From an uncultured bacterium (GTDB lineage: Bacteria > Vulcanimicrobiota > CADAWZ01), in the NCBI GenBank assembly GCA_949288455.1, contig CASEKF010000002.1, positions 1-41,882 of the forward strand: a stretch of DNA of 41,882 nt, given 5' to 3'. Positions within the stretch are counted from its first letter, which is position 1; the number at the start of each line of letters is the position of its first letter. Both the position numbers and the translations under genes were made by a program. Below, piece by piece: positions 231 through 28,419 of this stretch. The notes below the pieces were generated by a model. It ran no database searches. It was given only the letters and a program-made list of their open reading frames with translations, and was not told where the DNA came from.

Positions 231-1247
231 ATGAAAAATAAGTTAGTTTTCTCCGAAGTAAAAAAAATTCTTGTTATTCGTCTGGACGCTGCCGGAGACT
301 TAATTCTTTCTACGCCTTTCTTTAGAAATTTGAGGGATAACTTTCCAAACGCCGTTATAACCGCGTTAATTAGAGAATATACGCAAGGCGTTTTAGTTAA
401 CAATCCGAACGTGGATAAGCTATTAGTTTATCCCGAAAAATCAAATGTTTTGAAGCGTATAAATTTTATTTTGTCGCTTAAAAAGGAAAATTTTGATTTT
501 GCGGTTTCGCTTTCTCCCATAGCTAAATCTTTTTTCCTTTCGTTTTTAGTTGCGGGCAAAAGAACTTTTTCATATTCTTATTCAGGTCGTTTTACCGCTA
601 ATATTATCGCTTCTCTTCTTGGAAAATGTCCTAAGCTGGATATCGCTGGGCTTCTATCTTCTGGAGAGCGAGTCCCGCATGAAGTTCTCCAGACTTTCGT
701 TATTCTGAAAAGCCTGGGTATAAATCCTAAAGAATATCCTTTGGAAGCGTTCCCTGAAGCCGCGTCTTTTAAGTTCGCTGAAAGCATATTGCCGAAATTG
801 CCCGCTATAGGCGTGCATTTAAGTTTTAAGTGGCTTACGGGAGGTTGGACTGAAAAGGATCTTGCGGAACTCGTCAAGGCTCTTAAAAGCGGTTTTCCTC
901 ACGCGTCTATCGTTGTAACTTACGGTAAGCTTGAAAACTCTTTAGCCGTCAGTTTGAAGAAACTTTTAAAGAACGAAGACGTGATATTCGCCGGGGATTA
1001 TTCCTTTTCAGATTGGGCCGCGGTTATATCAAAGTGTTCGGTTTTGGTAACTACCGACACCGGGGCTTTGCATTGTGCCGCGGCGATGCAAACTCCGCCG
1101 GTATGCCTGTATGAAGCTTCAACTTTTGAACATTGTTCCTCCCAGTGGGCTCCTTGGAAAATTAAGTCCAAAATTTTGAAAAAAACTGATTTTAAGATTG
1201 CCGTAGAAGAAATCTTAAAATCAGTAGGCGAATTAATTGATATATAG
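231..1247 (+). CDS. Glycosyltransferase family 9 (heptosyltransferase-like)
   Basis: A 338-residue protein of the ADP-heptose:LPS heptosyltransferase family (GT9), which adds sugars to the lipopolysaccharide core or a related surface glycan at the inner face of the cytoplasmic membrane. The N-terminal Rossmann half opens KKILVIRLDAAGDLILSTPF, the classic GT9 start. The C-terminal half carries the donor-binding signature TTDTGALHCAAAM near residue 285, followed by the usual PPVCLY strand. ATG 231 was chosen because the family begins close to KKILVIR. An in-frame ATG at 210 adds seven unlikely residues, and the GGGGAG at 203-208 lies only one base before it. Neither start has an ideal ribosome site. 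The acceptor sugar cannot be read from sequence. The gene begins just after the upstream stop, so the two probably form one glycan operon. Confidence 0.85.
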   Translation: MKNKLVFSEVKKILVIRLDAAGDLILSTPFFRNLRDNFPNAVITALIREYTQGVLVNNPNVDKLLVYPEKSNVLKRINFILSLKKENFDFAVSLSPIAKSFFLSFLVAGKRTFSYSYSGRFTANIIASLLGKCPKLDIAGLLSSGERVPHEVLQTFVILKSLGINPKEYPLEAFPEAASFKFAESILPKLPAIGVHLSFKWLTGGWTEKDLAELVKALKSGFPHASIVVTYGKLENSLAVSLKKLLKNEDVIFAGDYSFSDWAAVISKCSVLVTTDTGALHCAAAMQTPPVCLYEASTFEHCSSQWAPWKIKSKILKKTDFKIAVEEILKSVGELIDI

Positions 1248-18224: not shown

Positions 18225-19625
18225 TTATCTTCTATTTCTATTATACGTATCGTTATTATATCGTTCGTTGAAACGCTGCTTTCTAGTCTGAGCGTCGTCT
18301 TCTTCTGCGTCGGAATCTTTAGAAGAAGAGTAACCTGTTTTTTTCTTTGATGATTTTGCAGGCGTTTTTGGCCGTCCTTTCTCGTCTAACCAACTTATTT
18401 CGATTTTTTTGTCTAGTATAGATTCAAGCTTTACTTTAACGTTTTGGATTCCTAATTGTACGCCTTGAGAGTCTGTCAAAGGGAAGTAAACGTTGCCGTA
18501 AGTCGTTTGGTTTGGCCCAAGAGTTTTATCTAAAGCTTCGTCGTATTTTACCGCTTTTATTTGTTCGTTCGAAGAAGTGATTAAACTCATTTTCCATTTA
18601 AAAGGAGCTAATTGAATAGGCACGTCCGAGTTTTTGTTGGAGATTGTGACCTGAAATACGGCGTAAGCGTCAAGTTCCAGCTGCTGCCTGAGTCCGTTCG
18701 CAATTGCTTGAACTTGTTCGTAATTATCCTGTTGATCGTCTTTTGCCGCGAACATTCTGGCTTGCGATCTTATTAACTCGGGAGTATAAAATAGAATTTC
18801 TATATCTATATTAGCGTCCTTTTTAGCCGCTTTGTTAGCTCTGTGATTGTCATGAGTTAGGTTGGTTGCCATTCCGTATATCATATTAGGAACAGAAATC
18901 CATCTTCCTCCGGCCCAGTTGTAGCTTCCGGCGTCAAAGGTGTATTCGAGATATCTGTAAAGGGAATATCCTTGAAGAAGTTTTATAGGATTAGGAAAAA
19001 GAGTTGGTCCCGAGCGTTTGTTGAACGACACGACTCTAGTGCAGTCAGCGAGTTCTTCTATATATTCGTCTTGTATTTGCTGTTTTCGTTCTTCGCGTTC
19101 TTGGAGTCTTTTCTTTTCAGCCGCTTCAGCTTCTTTTTTCAGCTGTTCTTCTCTTTTCTTGGCTTCTCTTATTAACTGTTCTTCTTTTTTCTGACTCGCG
19201 ATACTTTGTTCAGCTTCCTTCCGATTTATCTTTTTATGTTCTTCTTTATCTGTCGTTAGCGTCGTTTTAGATAACTGCCGCCGACTTGTGTCTTTTTTGT
19301 CCTCTTTAGCGTCTATGCGCGCAATGTCGCCTTTTTCAACCGCGCTTTGCCCGTTTGTCTCAGAAATTTCGCATATACAGTAATGTTCGTATAGCTCGAT
19401 GACTTTGAGTTTTGCTATTGTTTTATTTCCGCGCGTTACCGTAAACGTCTGATCATTTCCTATATTTTCATAAAAACCTTTATTGACGAAAATTTTTCCG
19501 TTCTCCACGTTAACTACTATAGGGTTATCAAAAGCGTTTTGGGTTTGTGCGCCGACTTGAGAAGAGACGCAGTATAAAAAAAAGCACAAAGCCGCGCAAA
19601 ATACGGTCATATTTTTTAACGACAT
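18225..19625 (-). CDS. Exported coiled-coil protein of unknown function
   Basis: A 466-residue protein not recognised as a known family. A signal peptide (1 to about 26, ending VGA) is followed by a small beta domain (residues 30-105: IVVNVENGKIFVNKGF...). A very charged Lys/Glu/Arg/Gln stretch (about 110-200: KKEEQLIREAKKREEQLKKE) is almost certainly a coiled coil. A larger domain (about 205-430) contains a Trp-Ala-Gly-Gly-Arg-Trp turn and a C-terminal beta domain. A low-complexity Ser/Lys/Asn/Arg tail follows. AAGGAGG lies five bases before the ATG. It heads the recF operon and starts from a strong promoter. Location is predicted to be periplasmic or surface. Confidence 0.65.
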   Translation of the reverse strand: MSLKNMTVFCAALCFFLYCVSSQVGAQTQNAFDNPIVVNVENGKIFVNKGFYENIGNDQTFTVTRGNKTIAKLKVIELYEHYCICEISETNGQSAVEKGDIARIDAKEDKKDTSRRQLSKTTLTTDKEEHKKINRKEAEQSIASQKKEEQLIREAKKREEQLKKEAEAAEKKRLQEREERKQQIQDEYIEELADCTRVVSFNKRSGPTLFPNPIKLLQGYSLYRYLEYTFDAGSYNWAGGRWISVPNMIYGMATNLTHDNHRANKAAKKDANIDIEILFYTPELIRSQARMFAAKDDQQDNYEQVQAIANGLRQQLELDAYAVFQVTISNKNSDVPIQLAPFKWKMSLITSSNEQIKAVKYDEALDKTLGPNQTTYGNVYFPLTDSQGVQLGIQNVKVKLESILDKKIEISWLDEKGRPKTPAKSSKKKTGYSSSKDSDAEEDDAQTRKQRFNERYNNDTYNRNRR

Positions 19626-20356: not shown

Positions 20357-21646
20357 ATGGTAAAAAGATTAAGATTTTTAATACTGTTTTTTATAGTTGT
20401 TCTTTTATGCCAACGCGCGGCGTTAGCTAACCCGATAGTATTTTGGCACGCATTGCCTGATTCCCAGGCGTCGGTTATAGACGAGCTTGCCGCTCAGTAT
20501 ATGGAGAAAAATCCAAGTATTACGATTGAAATTAAAAAATTTGCTAATATGGAAGAACTTCATTCGGCTCTTTTAACTTCAGATCCAGCAGTCCTTCCGG
20601 ATATAGCCGCTATCGATTCTTCTTGGCAGGAGGAATTGAAAGACGCTTCGAAAATAGTTCCGGTAGAGGATAGTTTGTTAAAATCTGTCAAAGTAGCTCT
20701 TAAAATGGATACTTACCCGCCTTTATGGAAAGCGGCATGTTTTGACGACGCGCTTTGGACAATGCCTTATTTCGCTTATAATTACGCTTTGGTTTACGAC
20801 GCCGACGCATTTGCGGAAGAAGGACTTAAAACTCCTCCGAGCGACTGGTCTCAACTTTATGAGTATTCTAAAAAACTTACCGATTCGGAAAAAGGGATTT
20901 ACGGTTTTTTTATACCGGCTGAAAAATCGGCCAAAGACTTCGCGTATTTCTATATGATGTTCCTTTGTCAAGCGGAAGATCCGGAATATACTTTGCAAAA
21001 AGAGGGTATAGACGGGAAAAATGCGGAGCTGTCTCTTTTTTACTTATATGATTTGCTTCATACCCATAAAATAGCGCAGGCTGAAGACGTGACGAAGTCT
21101 CCTATTTTTATAGGTTCTCCGGAAGATTTTATTCAGGCCTCGGCAACCAGACCTAATCTTAAGGTCGCCAGATGGAGCGGTAAAAATTCGGTGGGAAATA
21201 TTGTTTTAACGACTCTGGCTATGGTAAATAAAACTTCTTTGGATAGAGAAAATTCTTGGTTTTTTATATATTATCTGACGGAGTTCCCCCAGCTTCAGAA
21301 ATTGGCGTTAGCTTCTCCTGCGCTGCCTGCGAATAAACAGGTGACCTTGTCTCCCAATTATTTTCAATTTTTAGAGAAGTATCCGGGAATAAGAACTTTT
21401 TTAACTCTTATGGGTAAGGGAAGCGTTAAACCTTCTATGGATAATTACGAATCTGTTTTAAAAGCTTTAGGTTCTTCTCTTTTAGATGGATTAAACAATA
21501 AAAAACCTATCAAATCAGCGGTTTTAGAATCAATGGAGACGGTTAATTCGGTTGTAAATCCCGAGGTTGAGCCTTCTCAGCCTACCGGAGAAAATTTGAA
21601 CGTATATGACAAGGAACCAAGCAAATCTGACAAAACCGGGAAATAG
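20357..21646 (+). CDS. Extracellular solute-binding protein (family 1, sugar-type)
   Basis: A 429-residue periplasmic binding protein. A signal peptide (to about residue 25, ending ALA) precedes the family opening IVFWHALPDSQASVIDELAAQY. A typical FIPAEKSAKDFAYFYMMFL region follows, and aromatic residues (WSQL, PYFAYNYALVYD) line the probable ligand site. The closest type is UgpB/MalE (glycerol-phosphate or oligosaccharide). The last 40 residues are a Ser/Pro/Glu/Lys-rich tail. Good ribosome site TAGGAGG. No ABC permease or ATPase for sugar uptake is adjacent; the next gene is mlaE. Partners may be elsewhere. Confidence 0.85.
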   Translation: MVKRLRFLILFFIVVLLCQRAALANPIVFWHALPDSQASVIDELAAQYMEKNPSITIEIKKFANMEELHSALLTSDPAVLPDIAAIDSSWQEELKDASKIVPVEDSLLKSVKVALKMDTYPPLWKAACFDDALWTMPYFAYNYALVYDADAFAEEGLKTPPSDWSQLYEYSKKLTDSEKGIYGFFIPAEKSAKDFAYFYMMFLCQAEDPEYTLQKEGIDGKNAELSLFYLYDLLHTHKIAQAEDVTKSPIFIGSPEDFIQASATRPNLKVARWSGKNSVGNIVLTTLAMVNKTSLDRENSWFFIYYLTEFPQLQKLALASPALPANKQVTLSPNYFQFLEKYPGIRTFLTLMGKGSVKPSMDNYESVLKALGSSLLDGLNNKKPIKSAVLESMETVNSVVNPEVEPSQPTGENLNVYDKEPSKSDKTGK

Positions 21647-21709: not shown

Positions 21710-22498
21710 ATGAAAGATTTACTTATAAAATTTTTTGGCGGAGTCGGCGATAAGACATTAGCTGTTTTTGAGTATATAGGAGGCATAGTTATCCTTTTAT
21801 TCAACGCCGTAATGTGGATATTTAGACTGGATATAAGGCTAAAGCTTACTATACAACAAATGGCGCTGCTTGGAGTCAATTCTATATTTATTGTGTTCGT
21901 TACGACTTTTTTCGCCGGAGCAGTAGTGTCTCTTCAGCTTGCGGAGCTTGCCGTAAGATATGGTTTAGGTAAATTTGTCGGAGGCGGAGTCGCTATAGCG
22001 ATGTGCAGAGAGCTCGCCCCTATGCTTACGGCCGTAGTCGTAGCCGGTAGAGCCGGTTCGGCTATCACGGCTGAAATCGGCTCTATGAAAGTCACGGAAC
22101 AAATTGACGCTCTTGAAGTAATGGCAGTTAGTCCCGTGAAATATTTAGTAGTTCCGAGGCTGATAGCTTGCGTAGTTCTTTTTCCTATACTTACGCTTTT
22201 TGCAGATTGCGCCGGGGTTTTAGGAGGAGGAGTCGTCGCAAATATTTTAGCCGGCATAGATTTATCTTTATATACGGACAGTATAAAAAACATGCTTTTT
22301 ATGGAAGATTTTTTGGGCGGCTTGTATAAATCTGTTTTTTTTGCTATAGAAGTCGTTTTGATTGGATGTTATCAGGGAATGACTACTAAAGGAGGAGCAG
22401 CGGGAGTAGGAATAGCGACGACAGGATCGGTAGTTTATTCGATAATCGTAGTGTTTATAACGAATTATTTATTGTCTTCTATAATTTTTTCTTTGTAA
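21710..22498 (+). CDS. mlaE: MlaE-family lipid ABC transporter permease
   Basis: A 262-residue inner-membrane permease of the Mla/MCE lipid transport system, which moves phospholipids between the inner and outer membranes. About five to six helices are visible. The core ELAPMLTAVVVAGRAGSAI, with the following TAEIGSMKVTEQIDALEVM, is the MlaE signature contacting the ATPase. It is followed, after a 231-base gap, by mlaF and mlaD. The usual accessory mlaB and mlaC genes are absent, as in the shorter systems of non-proteobacterial diderms. Confidence 0.95.
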   Translation: MKDLLIKFFGGVGDKTLAVFEYIGGIVILLFNAVMWIFRLDIRLKLTIQQMALLGVNSIFIVFVTTFFAGAVVSLQLAELAVRYGLGKFVGGGVAIAMCRELAPMLTAVVVAGRAGSAITAEIGSMKVTEQIDALEVMAVSPVKYLVVPRLIACVVLFPILTLFADCAGVLGGGVVANILAGIDLSLYTDSIKNMLFMEDFLGGLYKSVFFAIEVVLIGCYQGMTTKGGAAGVGIATTGSVVYSIIVVFITNYLLSSIIFSL

Positions 22499-22729
22499 TT
22501 TTTATCGTCGTCTTTTCGAGCCGTTTTTGATTGAGGTTAAACGCGCCTCGGCCGTTTTAAGCTCGAGTCGCTGCTTAGCGGTTTCTGCAGATAGCTTTTG
22601 ACAAGCCGAACGTTTTATCGCAGTTCGTAATTTTCCTTAGATATCGGAATTTTTTTAGGCTTGGTTTTAACGGCTGAATTTTTGAATTTTTTATTATTTA
22701 ACGAATTTGGAAAGTGTTAATTTTGGCAA
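22499..22729 (+). other. Unusual 231-base gap inside the mla operon
   Basis: No open frame of note. Two short hairpins occur: CGCT/AGCG near 22570-22580, and CGAAC/GTTCG (22607-22611 / 22623-22627) followed by TAATTTTCC. The second could be a weak terminator or processing site. I see no promoter of good quality. Confidence 0.4.
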
Positions 22730-23509
22730 TTGAGTAAGACTAATGAAAAGAATAAAAACGAATTTTTCCTTGAAGTAAAAAATTTGCTTTTAAAAAGAGG
22801 AGAAAGAACTATTTTAGATCGCGTGAGCGTGACGCTTCCAAAAGGCGAGACTCTCGTGCTTATGGGATTGTCCGGAGCGGGTAAAAGCACTTTGATACGA
22901 TGCGTTATAGGTTTATTGTCTCCCACGTCCGGAGAAATATTGATAAACGGCTCTAACGTAGCCAATTTGAAGGGTAGAGCTTTAGATAATCTCAGGAAAA
23001 AGATCGGTATGGTTTTTCAATCCCCGGCTCTTTTCGATTCTTTGACTATTATGGACAATATAGCTTTCGGATTACGCGAAAATACTAAGATTCCCGAAGC
23101 CGAGATTAAAGAAAGAGTTTTGAAAGCTCTTCATATAGTAGGTTTAGACGGAACTGAAAACCAATTCCCGTCTGAGCTTTCAGGAGGCATGCAAAAGAGA
23201 GCCAGTATAGCCCGGGCGATTGTCACTAATCCTGAATTGATATTATACGATGAACCTACAAGCGGTCTAGATCCGATTATGTCTAGCGTGATAAACGATT
23301 TGATAAACGATTTAAAAGTGACTTTTAATATGACTTCTATTGTCGTAACTCATGACTTAAAGAGCGCATATGCTATAGCCGATAAAATTATTTTGCTTTA
23401 TAAAGGCAAATTTTTATTAATCGGTTCTCCGGATGAATTTTCAAAATCTCAAGATCCGGTAGTGCGTCAGTTTATAGAAGGCAATTCTAAAGGTCCGGTG
23501 AAAATGTGA
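22730..23509 (+). CDS. mlaF: MlaF-family ABC ATPase
   Basis: A 259-residue ABC ATPase that powers MlaE. Walker A GLSGAGKS (46-53), Q-loop MVFQSPALFD, signature LSGGMQKRASIARAI, Walker B LILYDEPTSGLDP, and the H-loop His in VVTHD are all intact. The family trait of Met after the LSGG is present. TTG 22730 is the only sensible start for this frame; its ribosome site (GGAAAG) is weak. It stops 22 bases before the mlaD start. Confidence 0.95.
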   Translation: MSKTNEKNKNEFFLEVKNLLLKRGERTILDRVSVTLPKGETLVLMGLSGAGKSTLIRCVIGLLSPTSGEILINGSNVANLKGRALDNLRKKIGMVFQSPALFDSLTIMDNIAFGLRENTKIPEAEIKERVLKALHIVGLDGTENQFPSELSGGMQKRASIARAIVTNPELILYDEPTSGLDPIMSSVINDLINDLKVTFNMTSIVVTHDLKSAYAIADKIILLYKGKFLLIGSPDEFSKSQDPVVRQFIEGNSKGPVKM

Positions 23510-23531
23510 TATTTGCAGCGAGGTGTTGTTT

Positions 23532-25007
23532 ATGGTAGGAACGTCTGTAAAAGTTGGCTTTACGGTTGTCGTGGCAATTATTCTCTTTGTTTTTGTAATG
23601 AATTTTATGGGGGTTTTTAAGAAGGAAGAGATCGGAACTCCTTATTTTATCGTGTTTAAGCAAGTGGCCGGGCTTCAAATCGGAGCTCCGGTATTAAAGG
23701 CCGGAGTAAAAGTCGGAAAGGTTATTTCAGTCGTAGTAATTTCTCATAACGAGCCTTCAAAATATAAGGATATGGTTCGATTGACCATTATGCTGAATAG
23801 CGATAAGGAAGTTTTGACGGAGACCTCCGGCTTTTTTATTTCGTCTAATTTAATGGGAGATAAGTGGCTTGAGATAATTCCGCGAGACGGGAAAATATTG
23901 AAGCCGTGCGATTATCGTTCCGCGACTCCTTGGACTGAGCCTTGCGCCGTCGGTATCGCTCCTATTTCGATAGACGAGATGATGATAGCGGCTGATCAAA
24001 CTCTTACTAGACTGGATGAAGCAGTGAGAAATTTTAACGATTTTTTAGGAGACGATAAAGTTCAAGAGGATATGAAATTGGCCATAAGCAATGTGAAAGA
24101 CGCGGCCTCTAGTCTCAGTCACTTGGCTTCTAACATGGATCGACAGTTCAACGTAGTCGTAGATAAAAGCGTGAAAGTTATAGACGGAGCCAATAAAGTC
24201 GTTCAAAACGTAAATGCCGTAGTAGTATCGGCCGGCGGAAATATAAGCGATATTACGTCTTCGGTGAAGACTTTAGTAGACTCTAACGGAGCTTCTATAA
24301 GCGATATTGTGAAAAATCTCGACGAAACTTCAAAAAATCTTAATTTAGCTATGAAGGCGATACAGGAAGTAGTAGCCGACGAGCGTTTCGGATCCAGCAT
24401 ATTGGGTACTCTTGAAAATCTTGAGAAGACGACCGTTGAGTTAGAAGGAGTAGTAAAAGACGTTAGAACTATTACTTCAGATCCTAACGTTCAGGAAAAT
24501 TTAAAAGCTACTTTGCAAGAGACTAGAGAAACGGTAACGGGCGCGAATAAGCTTATAAAGAGGGTTCGTAAATTTTTGGGAGACAAGGATAACGGAGAAA
24601 GCGGAAGTCGTTCGCGCATAATGCAGCTCGACGCGGATATGTTATGGGATACTCCCGAAGGGTTTTCTCATGGCAACGCAAATTTATATTTGTTTCCCAG
24701 AGGGGAGCATATGTTAAAGCTTGGCGTCGAAGAAATAGGAAAAGATAATAAAGTTAATTTTCAGTATGGCAAAAACATAGGTTCGTTCCGTCCAAGAATA
24801 GGAGTGGTAAGATCTCAGCTGGGGATTGGAACTGACGCGTTTATAGGCAAAAATATCGAACTTAGCGTAGACGCTTATAATACTTCGGACGTTCAAGTGG
24901 ATTTGCTTGGCAAATATATAATTAACGACAGCGTATACTTTATGGGAGGCGTAAGAGACGCCTTTGATACTAAGCAGGGCGTTTTAGGCGTGGGTAAAAG
25001 ATTTTAA
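23532..25007 (+). CDS. mlaD: MlaD/MCE-domain protein with long helical stalk and C-terminal barrel-like domain
   Basis: A 491-residue protein, more than twice E. coli MlaD. One N-terminal transmembrane helix (8-27) is followed by the MCE domain (about 37-117: YFIVFKQVAGLQIGAPVLKAGVKVG ...). A long helical segment (about 145-350) with many heptad-like repeats follows. The C-terminal 130 residues (359-491) are beta-rich with alternating strands and Gly-containing turns and end in Phe, as outer-membrane barrels do. The same architecture is described in Veillonella parvula, where MlaD is thought to bridge the whole envelope with a barrel in the outer membrane. ATG 23532 follows GCGAGG; GTG 23523 is less likely. 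Good evidence for the architecture; the bridge itself is inferred. Confidence 0.9.
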   Translation: MVGTSVKVGFTVVVAIILFVFVMNFMGVFKKEEIGTPYFIVFKQVAGLQIGAPVLKAGVKVGKVISVVVISHNEPSKYKDMVRLTIMLNSDKEVLTETSGFFISSNLMGDKWLEIIPRDGKILKPCDYRSATPWTEPCAVGIAPISIDEMMIAADQTLTRLDEAVRNFNDFLGDDKVQEDMKLAISNVKDAASSLSHLASNMDRQFNVVVDKSVKVIDGANKVVQNVNAVVVSAGGNISDITSSVKTLVDSNGASISDIVKNLDETSKNLNLAMKAIQEVVADERFGSSILGTLENLEKTTVELEGVVKDVRTITSDPNVQENLKATLQETRETVTGANKLIKRVRKFLGDKDNGESGSRSRIMQLDADMLWDTPEGFSHGNANLYLFPRGEHMLKLGVEEIGKDNKVNFQYGKNIGSFRPRIGVVRSQLGIGTDAFIGKNIELSVDAYNTSDVQVDLLGKYIINDSVYFMGGVRDAFDTKQGVLGVGKRF

Positions 25008-25039: not shown

Positions 25040-26245
25040 GTGTTAGAAAATCTTGACAGTACTCAGGACAGCAGATGGCTTAGGGAAAATTCAGTTCTTG
25101 ACGATCGGTATAAAGTTCTTAAGCTTATAAAGGCCGGGGGTATGGGGGCGGTTTATCAAGCTGCCGATATGAGGATGGAAAACAGAATCGTTGCCATTAA
25201 GCATATGTTGGATAATTTTAGCGATCCTCAGGAACGGCGGGATGCAATAGATAGGTTCGTTTCTGAAATTCAGGTTCTCACCGAGATTTGTCATCCTAAT
25301 ATTCCTCATGTAAGCGATCATTTTTTGCTCGATAACGCTTTCTTTTTTGTGATGGACTATATAGAAGGAAAGGATTTGTCTTATATACTTAAAAATGAAG
25401 GTTCTCCGGGACTTCCTGAAAAAAGGGTCCTTGAAATAGGAGTAGAAGTTTGCGAGGCTTTAAATTATATCCATAATTTGGAGACTCCTTTCGCTCATCG
25501 AGATATAAAACCTTCAAATATCATAATAAGGAATGCAGACGGAAGAGTTATGCTTATCGACTTTGGAATAGCAAGAGTCACAAATCCAAGCGAGGGGTTT
25601 TGGATAGGCACTCCCGGATACGCTCCTCCGGAGCAGCAGTTTGGAAAACCGGAATTGAGATCCGATATATACGCTCTTGGAGCGGCTATGCATGAACTTT
25701 TGACAGGGCATAGACCCGTGGATTTTGATTTTCTTCCTTTTTCTGAATTTGGAGTTTCCGTATCGAAAGAATTGGAGAACATTATATTTGACGCTCTTAA
25801 CTGGAATCCTGACGACAGAATACAAACTGCTCTTGACTTTCAGAAGCGGTTGATAGACGCCTTAGGGTATTCGACTCTTTCTTACTGTCAGGGCGACGCA
25901 TTCGCGTTTACGGAAGCCGTAAATAAATACAAGTCTAAGGTTTTAGACTCTTTATTAAATTCCTTGCTTCAACGGTACGCTAACGAATGTCATACTAGTT
26001 TTATTCCTAAAAATCTTGATTATCTAACGGTTACTCTGGCGTGTCCAATGTCTTTTCAGTTGATAGTAAAGAAAAATGAAGTCGATAGAAAAATTGAATT
26101 TTTTAAAAAAGAAGGCATATTGTCCCCTGCGTTTTTAGGAAAAATCGATCCGTTAACGGACGGCTCTTCCGCGGCAGAGCGGATTATAGACGTATTTGTC
26201 GACGAATATGAAAGATTTAAGGCCGGTTCTTGGGGGATATTTTAA
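25040..26245 (+). CDS. Serine/threonine protein kinase with an extra C-terminal domain
   Basis: A 401-residue Hanks-type (PknB-like) kinase with no transmembrane helix. All key parts are present: Gly-rich loop KAGGMGAVY (31-39), Lys54 in VAIKHM, catalytic HRDIKPSN (153-160), DFG (174-176), and the APPE motif after a short activation loop. The kinase domain ends near 275. Residues 280-401 are a separate, soluble, unrecognised domain (GDAFAFTEAVNKYKSKVLDSLLNSLL ... VFVDEYERFKAGSWGIF). GTG start with GGAGG. It lies 32 bases after mlaD and 30 before wecA, so it may regulate envelope synthesis or lipid transport; its substrate is unknown. Confidence 0.9.
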   Translation: MLENLDSTQDSRWLRENSVLDDRYKVLKLIKAGGMGAVYQAADMRMENRIVAIKHMLDNFSDPQERRDAIDRFVSEIQVLTEICHPNIPHVSDHFLLDNAFFFVMDYIEGKDLSYILKNEGSPGLPEKRVLEIGVEVCEALNYIHNLETPFAHRDIKPSNIIIRNADGRVMLIDFGIARVTNPSEGFWIGTPGYAPPEQQFGKPELRSDIYALGAAMHELLTGHRPVDFDFLPFSEFGVSVSKELENIIFDALNWNPDDRIQTALDFQKRLIDALGYSTLSYCQGDAFAFTEAVNKYKSKVLDSLLNSLLQRYANECHTSFIPKNLDYLTVTLACPMSFQLIVKKNEVDRKIEFFKKEGILSPAFLGKIDPLTDGSSAAERIIDVFVDEYERFKAGSWGIF

Positions 26246-26275
26246 AAAATTATTAATACTAACGAGGCTTTTTAA

Positions 26276-27250
26276 GTGTACTTGATTTTTGCGGGCGTCT
26301 TTATAGCGGCTTTGCTAATTTCGTTTTTTTTAACGCCTTTAGTTATAAAAATAGCTGCGGCCAAAGGTTTTGTGGATCGTCCTAACGAACGTAAAATGCA
26401 TAAAGTTCCTATACCTTACGGCGGAGGAATAGCTATGTTCATAGCTTTTATAGCGTCCGCTTCCTTAGGTTTTGCCGTAATGTGGATCTACCGCTCTGAA
26501 GCGTCTATGCGCGAGATCCTGCTTTTTACGGCTTTTTGCGCCGGGAGCTTTCTCGCTTTTGTAATAGGCCTTATAGACGATATTATATCGATGCCGGCTA
26601 AGGTAAAATTATTATGTCAGATAGTGGCGGTGTCCATAGTAATGGCCTTTGGCGTTTCCGTTACTTTCGTTACTAATCCTTTTGGAGAAGGTTTGATTTA
26701 TTTCCCCGTATTCGTTACGATTCCGCTTACTATTTTCTGGATAGTCGGAATAATGAACGCGGTTAATTTATTGGACGGTTTAGACGGTCTTCTTGGCGGC
26801 GTGTCTGTTATATCGGCTTTAGTATTTTTTATAGTTTCTTGTATGAAGGGGCAGATTTTAGTAGCCTGCATGATGGCAGCTATCGCCGGCAGCGCTCTTG
26901 GGTTTTTAAAATATAATTTTAATCCGGCTAAAATTTTTATGGGAGACACCGGAAGTCTTTTCCTTGGTATGGTTTTCGCTATAGCTTCGGTTGTCGGAGG
27001 TCTTAAAACTACTACGACCGTAGCTTTTCTTATTCCCTTTTTGATAATGGGTTTCCCCATAATAGATACGGCATGGGCTATTATACGCAGAGCAAGCAGC
27101 CGCCAGCCTATTTTTAAGCCTGATAAAGGACATATTCATCATAGGCTTTTGGGGTTGGGATTGACTCAAAAACAGGCCGTATGTATTATCTATGCTATTA
27201 ATTTATGTTTAGGGCTTATAGCCATTGCAATTTGCTATTTTACCGTTTAA
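26276..27250 (+). CDS. wecA: Undecaprenyl-phosphate GlcNAc-1-phosphate transferase (WecA/TagO-like)
   Basis: A 324-residue polytopic membrane enzyme of the MraY/WecA family with about ten helices. It joins a sugar-1-phosphate (usually GlcNAc from UDP-GlcNAc) to undecaprenyl phosphate, starting a surface polymer. Marks: the first cytoplasmic loop DRPNERKMHKVPIPYGGG; the catalytic GLIDDI; NAVNLLDGLDGL; KIFMGDTGSL; and the family His motif GHIHHRLL. GTG 26276 is used. It is followed by wecB, so this pair likely makes a GlcNAc- or ManNAc-linked polymer rather than peptidoglycan lipid I. Confidence 0.93.
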   Translation: MYLIFAGVFIAALLISFFLTPLVIKIAAAKGFVDRPNERKMHKVPIPYGGGIAMFIAFIASASLGFAVMWIYRSEASMREILLFTAFCAGSFLAFVIGLIDDIISMPAKVKLLCQIVAVSIVMAFGVSVTFVTNPFGEGLIYFPVFVTIPLTIFWIVGIMNAVNLLDGLDGLLGGVSVISALVFFIVSCMKGQILVACMMAAIAGSALGFLKYNFNPAKIFMGDTGSLFLGMVFAIASVVGGLKTTTTVAFLIPFLIMGFPIIDTAWAIIRRASSRQPIFKPDKGHIHHRLLGLGLTQKQAVCIIYAINLCLGLIAIAICYFTV

Positions 27251-27273
27251 AGTTTATTTGGGGGCATGTTTAT

Positions 27274-28419
27274 ATGATAAAAGTTACGGCTGTGTTTGGA
27301 ACGCGACCTGAAGCCATAAAAATGGCTCCGGTTATACTTGCTCTGAAAAAAGATCCTGTTTTTGAGACTTCGGTAGTTTTGACAGGGCAGCATAGAGAGA
27401 TGCTTGATCAGGTAATGTCTTTGTTTAACTTGAAAGCGTCTTTTGACTTGAATATAATGAAAGATAAGCAAACTCTTTCCGATATTACCGTCGGAGCATT
27501 GTCCGGCCTTGAAAATATTTTTAAAGTAAGCCGACCGGATATAGTCTTGGTACAAGGCGACACTACTACCGCTTTTGCCGCCGCTCTCGCGTCTTTTTAT
27601 CAAAAAATTCCCGTGGGGCATATTGAAGCCGGTCTTAGAACCGACGATATATATAATCCTTATCCTGAAGAAATGAACAGGAGAATGATCACTGCCTTAG
27701 CTTCTCTTCATTTTGCGCCTACTAGAGAAGCTAAGCAAAATCTTTTAAAGGGCGGCGTCGATCAAAAGAATATATTTTTGACCGGGAACACTGTGGTAGA
27801 CGCCTTATTATATATGACTAAAAACAATGGAGCGGATTTGCCGGACGAATATCGAAAAAGGCATAAAGTCGGAAATCGAGTAATTTTTGTAGAGACGCAC
27901 AGACGTGAAAATTTAGGAGAACCGATGCGTCGTATTTGCGGAGCGTTAAAGAAACTTACGGAAAAATACGGCGACGTCGAGGTAGTATTTTCCGTTCATA
28001 GAAATCCTCTCGTTCGCGAAGTTGTTTTCGACGAATTACAAAATCTTAGTAGAGTTATTCTTCTTGAACCCGTAGATTATCCGGTAATGATAAAGCTTAT
28101 GGAAGAGTCTTTTTTTATTATGACCGATTCCGGAGGTCTTCAGGAAGAGGCTCCTTCTTTGGGCAGGCCGGTTATTATTCTTAGGGACAATACGGAGCGT
28201 CCCGAAGGAATCAGAGCCGGAACGGCCGTTTTGGCCGGGACGTGCGAAAATAACGTGTTCAGCGAAGCTTCCGGCCTTCTTGACGACGGCGAGCGATATA
28301 CGAAAATGGCTAAGGCCGCTAATCCGTATGGAGACGGTTTGGCTTCGGAGAGAATAGCTTCTATTATTCGCAGTGTTAACGACGTATCCTTACCGTATTT
28401 AGAGGAGTTTCCCGGATAA
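27274..28419 (+). CDS. wecB: UDP-N-acetylglucosamine 2-epimerase
   Basis: A 381-residue enzyme that interconverts UDP-GlcNAc and UDP-ManNAc, feeding ManNAc into surface polymers. Motifs: GTRPEAIKMAPV at the start; VQGDTTTAFAAALASF; GHIEAGLRTDD-YNPYPEEMNR; ETHRRENLG; and TDSGGLQEEAP...LRDNTERPEG. ATG 27274 is preferred over the upstream TTG because it starts right at IKVTAVFGTRPE and has GGGGG before it. The gene overlaps the next by one base (TAATG), showing tight coupling. Confidence 0.95.
   Translation: MIKVTAVFGTRPEAIKMAPVILALKKDPVFETSVVLTGQHREMLDQVMSLFNLKASFDLNIMKDKQTLSDITVGALSGLENIFKVSRPDIVLVQGDTTTAFAAALASFYQKIPVGHIEAGLRTDDIYNPYPEEMNRRMITALASLHFAPTREAKQNLLKGGVDQKNIFLTGNTVVDALLYMTKNNGADLPDEYRKRHKVGNRVIFVETHRRENLGEPMRRICGALKKLTEKYGDVEVVFSVHRNPLVREVVFDELQNLSRVILLEPVDYPVMIKLMEESFFIMTDSGGLQEEAPSLGRPVIILRDNTERPEGIRAGTAVLAGTCENNVFSEASGLLDDGERYTKMAKAANPYGDGLASERIASIIRSVNDVSLPYLEEFPG

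Follow-up and report, generated by a model that had tools for sequence, protein, structure and literature searches.

The locus described here most probably encodes a minimal lipid transporter, an MlaEFD system with a long MlaD, in which MlaD would bridge the cell envelope and its barrels would anchor it in the outer membrane. It lies within a stretch of 41 882 nucleotides (the window) from an uncultured bacterium of the Vulcanimicrobiota, and consists of three genes, mlaE, mlaF, and mlaD, that are adjacent and all read in one direction (Table 1). Pfam and NCBIfam matches to these genes bear out the original prediction, made from the letters of the window, of a minimal MlaE–MlaF–MlaD set. For the mlaF product, which has 81% identity to family relatives, the top NCBIfam model is MlaF (7.6e-71, under the cut-off set for the E. 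coli-type protein). The ATG at 23532 appears a likelier start for mlaD than the listed GTG at 23523, because MlaD in relatives begins at residue 4 of the open reading frame (ORF); the resulting length of 491 amino acids, compared with 494 from the GTG, agrees with the residue numbering of the original prediction. Residues of MlaD are counted here from the GTG, and numbering from the ATG is obtained by subtracting 3. The gap between mlaE and mlaF (22499–22729) is 231 nt long; in the closest relatives it measures 7, 58, and 19 nt. An mlaB gene hidden within it was considered and rejected, as there is no coding-strand ORF of more than 24 amino acids there.

Table 1. Genes of the locus, domains of MlaD, and the gene upstream of mlaE (positions in the window; MlaD residues counted from the GTG).
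Feature	Position	Strand	Evidence
Gene for a periplasmic solute-binding protein, ending 63 nt before mlaE	20357..21646	+	SBP_bac_8 1.1e-14
mlaE, permease subunit, 262 aa	21710..22498	+	Pfam PF02405 (MlaE) 3.6e-75; TIGR00056 4.2e-73, over cut-off
mlaF, ATPase subunit, 259 aa, TTG start	22730..23509	+	Pfam ABC_tran 2.1e-37; NCBIfam MlaF
mlaD ORF, GTG start, 494 aa	23523..25007	+	Pfam PF02470
mlaD from ATG, 491 aa	23532..25007	+	Starts of relatives
MlaD membrane helix, residues about 8-33	23544..23621	+	Sequence; helix 5-30 in low-confidence model
MlaD MCE domain, residues 39-120	23637..23882	+	Pfam PF02470 E 1.1e-8, over cut-off; genome profile search
MlaD helical stalk, residues about 145-355	23955..24587	+	Heptad periodicity; helices 150-352 in low-confidence model
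Putative ten-stranded C-terminal beta-barrel of MlaD, residues 366-494	24618..25004	+	Beta alternation, couplings, family conservation
Strands of the putative barrel, residues 366-377, 381-393, 396-406, 410-420, 422-431, 432-443, 444-456, 457-469, 470-482, 484-494			Limits by eye, approximate

The layout of MlaD agrees closely with what had been read from the sequence: one membrane helix, an MCE domain, a helical stalk of about 200 residues, and a beta-rich tail of 130 residues with a final Phe. The helix is evident in the sequence and the MCE domain is matched by Pfam. The stalk, of about 210 residues, is amphipathic, with a heptad periodicity (z = 10.0) reached by none of 500 shuffles and a beta periodicity of z = 0.2. 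The tail (residues 364–494, about 130 in all) has the opposite pattern, with a beta periodicity of z = 4.6, again reached by none of 500 shuffles, and no alpha periodicity. Its last residues are LGVGKRF, which place a Phe at the C-terminus.

Whether the tail forms a barrel can be addressed through the variation among its relatives. Hydrophobicity averaged over the family alternates with the beta period (z = 4.3, above all 2000 shuffles) and has no helical periodicity. A mean-field coupling analysis was conducted on 164 tails, an effective number of about 121, using ten strands with limits set by eye. The nine consecutive strand pairs, taken in antiparallel register, have a mean coupling of 3.97. 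Pairs that are not adjacent average 1.83 (p = 3e-5), and the nine pairs scored in parallel register average 2.43 (p = 0.006); the result persists when near-diagonal pairs are excluded. The couplings have the pattern of a ten-strand up-and-down antiparallel meander, with the strand number reported for Veillonella parvula, as read from an analysis in which a membrane barrel and other meanders give no distinguishable signal. Strand pair 6–7 is weakly coupled (1.81). The pair that would close a barrel, 1–10, has a coupling of 2.47, ninth of 36 and not over background.

These observations bear on a rival reading, in which the tail would be soluble in the periplasm, a beta domain touching only outer-membrane proteins or peptidoglycan; a soluble or disordered tail had been named at the outset as a possible refutation. 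The closure of strands 1 and 10 lacks coupling support, as such a domain would allow, and AlphaFold gave no barrel, with a pLDDT of 32 for the tail and 34 for full MlaD in runs that used two-row alignments of the window sequence and a truncated relative (L032); models of such low confidence count neither for nor against a barrel. Scans of the tail against Pfam and PDB returned nothing usable: PDB gave no match, and a match to FapF (E 0.58) was not significant. The regular alternation of hydrophobic and polar residues, the order of the strands in a meander, the aromatic C-terminal residue, and the co-occurrence of BamA in a diderm with LpxC all stand against a soluble tail, which we regard as unlikely. 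The evidence from sequence favours a ten-stranded outer-membrane barrel: hydrophobicity alternates with the beta period, consecutive strands are coupled in antiparallel register, the last residue is aromatic, and the tail is widely conserved in fusion with the MCE domain. The original reading of a barrel-bearing MlaD is thus supported on these four points, with the closing pair at background level.

A second prediction concerned the shuttle components. The host genome (2.13 Mb, 98.9% complete) encodes one MCE protein, MlaD. Neither MlaC nor MlaA was found in it at E <= 0.001, in a search that was positive in E. coli and Caulobacter controls, and across the phylum both proteins were found in 0 of 148 genomes. 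The presence of mlaC and mlaA elsewhere in the genome had been set beforehand as a possible refutation; both are absent from the host, and the absence of mlaC that had been claimed for the locus extends to 148 of 148 genomes of the phylum. For mlaB, the claimed absence holds among the ten neighbouring genes scanned, where no mlaB/STAS gene was found. The host genome also encodes TamB, BamA/Omp85, and LpxC. From these families, the cell is presumably a diderm with lipid A synthesis and the capacity to insert barrels.

It could be asked whether another protein has taken the place of MlaC. The solute-binding protein gene is directly upstream of mlaE on the same strand, at a distance of about 20–140 nt, in the window's own family as well as in f14 and f15, and its product might act as a periplasmic partner. 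We consider this very improbable: most of the phylum's other families with the same mlaEFD lack the gene there, sugars or small solutes are the ligands of its fold family, and a bridge requires no shuttle.

The closest known counterpart of the locus is the MlaEFD system of V. parvula, which has the same layout and whose isolated barrel is found in the outer-membrane fraction (PMC10665443, Grasekamp et al. 2023). The bridge model proposed for it consists of an MlaD hexamer with an MCE ring and helical tunnel, and outer-membrane barrels, making a shuttle unnecessary (PMC10665443). Both systems consist of three genes, mlaE, mlaF, and mlaD; in both, the single membrane helix of MlaD is followed by the MCE domain, an extended helical region, and a tail of ten apparent strands, the tails being likened by layout; and in both, MlaA and MlaC are absent and TamB is present. 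The likeness that was originally drawn to V. parvula MlaD is supported by gene set, domain order, and the absence of MlaA and MlaC, and the system is of the V. parvula type. The hosts differ, V. parvula belonging to the Negativicutes, and MlaD is about 70 residues longer here (about 491 compared with 419), mostly in the stalk (about 210 compared with about 150).

Other MCE systems are more distant. Homology to the E. coli MlaFEDB–MlaC–MlaA system extends over MlaE, MlaF, and the MCE domain of MlaD. However, E. coli MlaD, of 183 amino acids, has neither stalk nor barrel and requires MlaC and MlaA; the MlaC shuttle and MlaA lipoprotein of this six-component system are both missing here. E. coli PqiB and LetB (YebT) and mycobacterial Mce1 also form MCE hexamers in which helices or stacked rings serve as a periplasmic conduit, and the MCE and stalk part of MlaD has PDB matches in this comparison. 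These proteins differ: they contain several MCE domains or assemble as hetero-hexamers, work with other membrane partners, and lack a complete barrel in each chain.

The bridge is the model that we prefer; its closed barrel, its hexamer and tunnel, the place in the outer membrane, the lipid as substrate, and the direction of transport are inferred. If the solved MCE systems are a guide, MlaE2F2 would be seated in the inner membrane together with a hexamer of MlaD. MlaE and MlaF would energise lipid movement at the inner membrane, the MCE ring would take or hand over phospholipid, and the six stalk helices would form a hydrophobic conduit through the periplasm, whose far end would be fixed in the outer membrane by the C-terminal ten-stranded barrels. 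MlaC and MlaA would not be needed because the MlaD bridge would span to the outer membrane. Both termini of the barrel would point toward the periplasm because the strand number is even. The terminal Phe would fit insertion by the BAM machinery, of which BamA is encoded in the genome.

Against this model, the predicted barrel of V. parvula was judged too narrow for lipid passage, and a ring of six barrels looked unlikely in the authors' models (PMC10665443). We give roughly even chances to the tail being an outer-membrane anchor only, with MlaD still spanning the envelope and lipids entering or leaving at the tunnel mouth beside the barrels. A ten-stranded barrel, even if correct, is narrow; anchoring was raised as a possible role by the V. 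parvula authors (PMC10665443); and about 210 stalk residues, at 1.5 Å per residue, should suffice for a helix bundle that spans the periplasm. An anchoring role is nevertheless a refinement of the bridge, and all of the evidence is common to both.

The likely function of the bridge would be ATP-driven retrograde removal of outer-membrane phospholipid, opposed by TamB, as proposed for V. parvula. Transport here is probably retrograde because of the analogy with V. parvula tamB suppressors. Delivery of phospholipid to the outer membrane by MlaEFD is the less probable direction, with a modest chance of being correct. Which way Mla moves lipid has been a matter of dispute (PMC10212509), and sequence fixes no direction; against this, tamB mutations in V. 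parvula suppress mla phenotypes, and its authors read the two systems as working in opposite directions, with Mla retrograde (PMC10665443).

Barrel-tipped MlaEFD is already known, having been described in Veillonella in 2023, and the Vulcanimicrobiota system joins it. That work reported long MlaD to be widespread and barrels to be present across diderm Terrabacteria, took MlaEFD alone as probably ancestral, and put barrel-type MlaD at about 10% of MlaD sequences (PMC10665443). The Vulcanimicrobiota are not mentioned in its main text. In this phylum, MlaD was found in 142 of 149 genomes and the tail profile has a match in 125 of 148, including 78 of the 85 good ones; mlaE, mlaF, and mlaD are side by side, in that order, in all related loci compared. 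Judged by these matches, the three-gene MlaEFD with a putatively barrel-tipped MlaD is the standard form throughout the Vulcanimicrobiota (Eremiobacterota). In a wider draw of 388 genomes the profile matches 192. Outside the phylum these comprise 66 genomes in 55 families, about a quarter of the outside genomes sampled. Among 181 tail-bearing ORFs recovered from fetched DNA, 175 also contain the MCE domain, and the other six are fragments at contig or stretch ends or have a split frame, so that in this DNA every complete tail-bearing ORF has the tail fused to an MCE domain. The two occur together in 33 of the 33 loci fetched from outside the phylum. A genome from horse faeces holds a relative of the window's MlaD, and no relatives were found among viral contigs.

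Two small additions to the 2023 work are the absence of MlaA and MlaC throughout a phylum with near-universal tails, and the reach of the tail profile to 55 outside families. That one profile from a single phylum reaches so far hints that about 10%, as reported, may be an underestimate, but this is a lead, as the two figures have different denominators. A broader proposal, to which we give slightly less than even chances, is that the tail is one homologous, vertically inherited domain, much commoner than about 10%, and that barrel-tipped MlaEFD is the default in whole phyla such as the Vulcanimicrobiota. The tail profile provides a means to measure how common barrel-tipped MlaD is. The phospholipid bridge model is widened from one experimental species to a whole phylum without the E. 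coli shuttle parts, and a cultured host is available in which it could be tested. Vulcanimicrobium alpinum WC8-2 (printed as V. alpinus) was the first cultured member of the Eremiobacterota and is reported to have a typical Gram-negative wall, its outer membrane covered by LPS (PMC9758169). NCBI taxonomy places it in the Vulcanimicrobiota, kingdom Bacillati. The phylum member that we take to be this species (G118) has mlaE, mlaF, and mlaD, with the same MlaD layout and tail.

Some members of the phylum depart from this form. Members in f15 and f16 (L182, L183, and L184) encode, besides the barrel-tipped protein, a second MlaD-like protein of about 350–385 amino acids that is barrel-less and ends after the helical part. 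Three genomes of family f3 (G005–G007), two of them 97–98% complete, have a marginal MlaD match (E about 5e-4 to 1e-3) and no match to the tail, which may have been lost or changed in this family.

The surroundings of the locus are partly conserved. In the window's family the SBP_bac_8 gene is kept at its place; f14 and f15 have it there too, at about 25% identity, and others do not. After mlaD there are genes for a Ser/Thr kinase, a WecA-like glycosyltransferase, and a WecB epimerase (25040–28419), in an order that is kept in distant families, which hints at a block of genes for envelope biogenesis. In the window's part of the phylum, mlaD is followed by the kinase gene and often also by glycosyltransferase and wecB genes. 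The opposite strand carries, upstream, a gene for a 466-aa secreted protein without a family match (18225–19625), whose position beside the BsuPI-domain gene is kept in several families.
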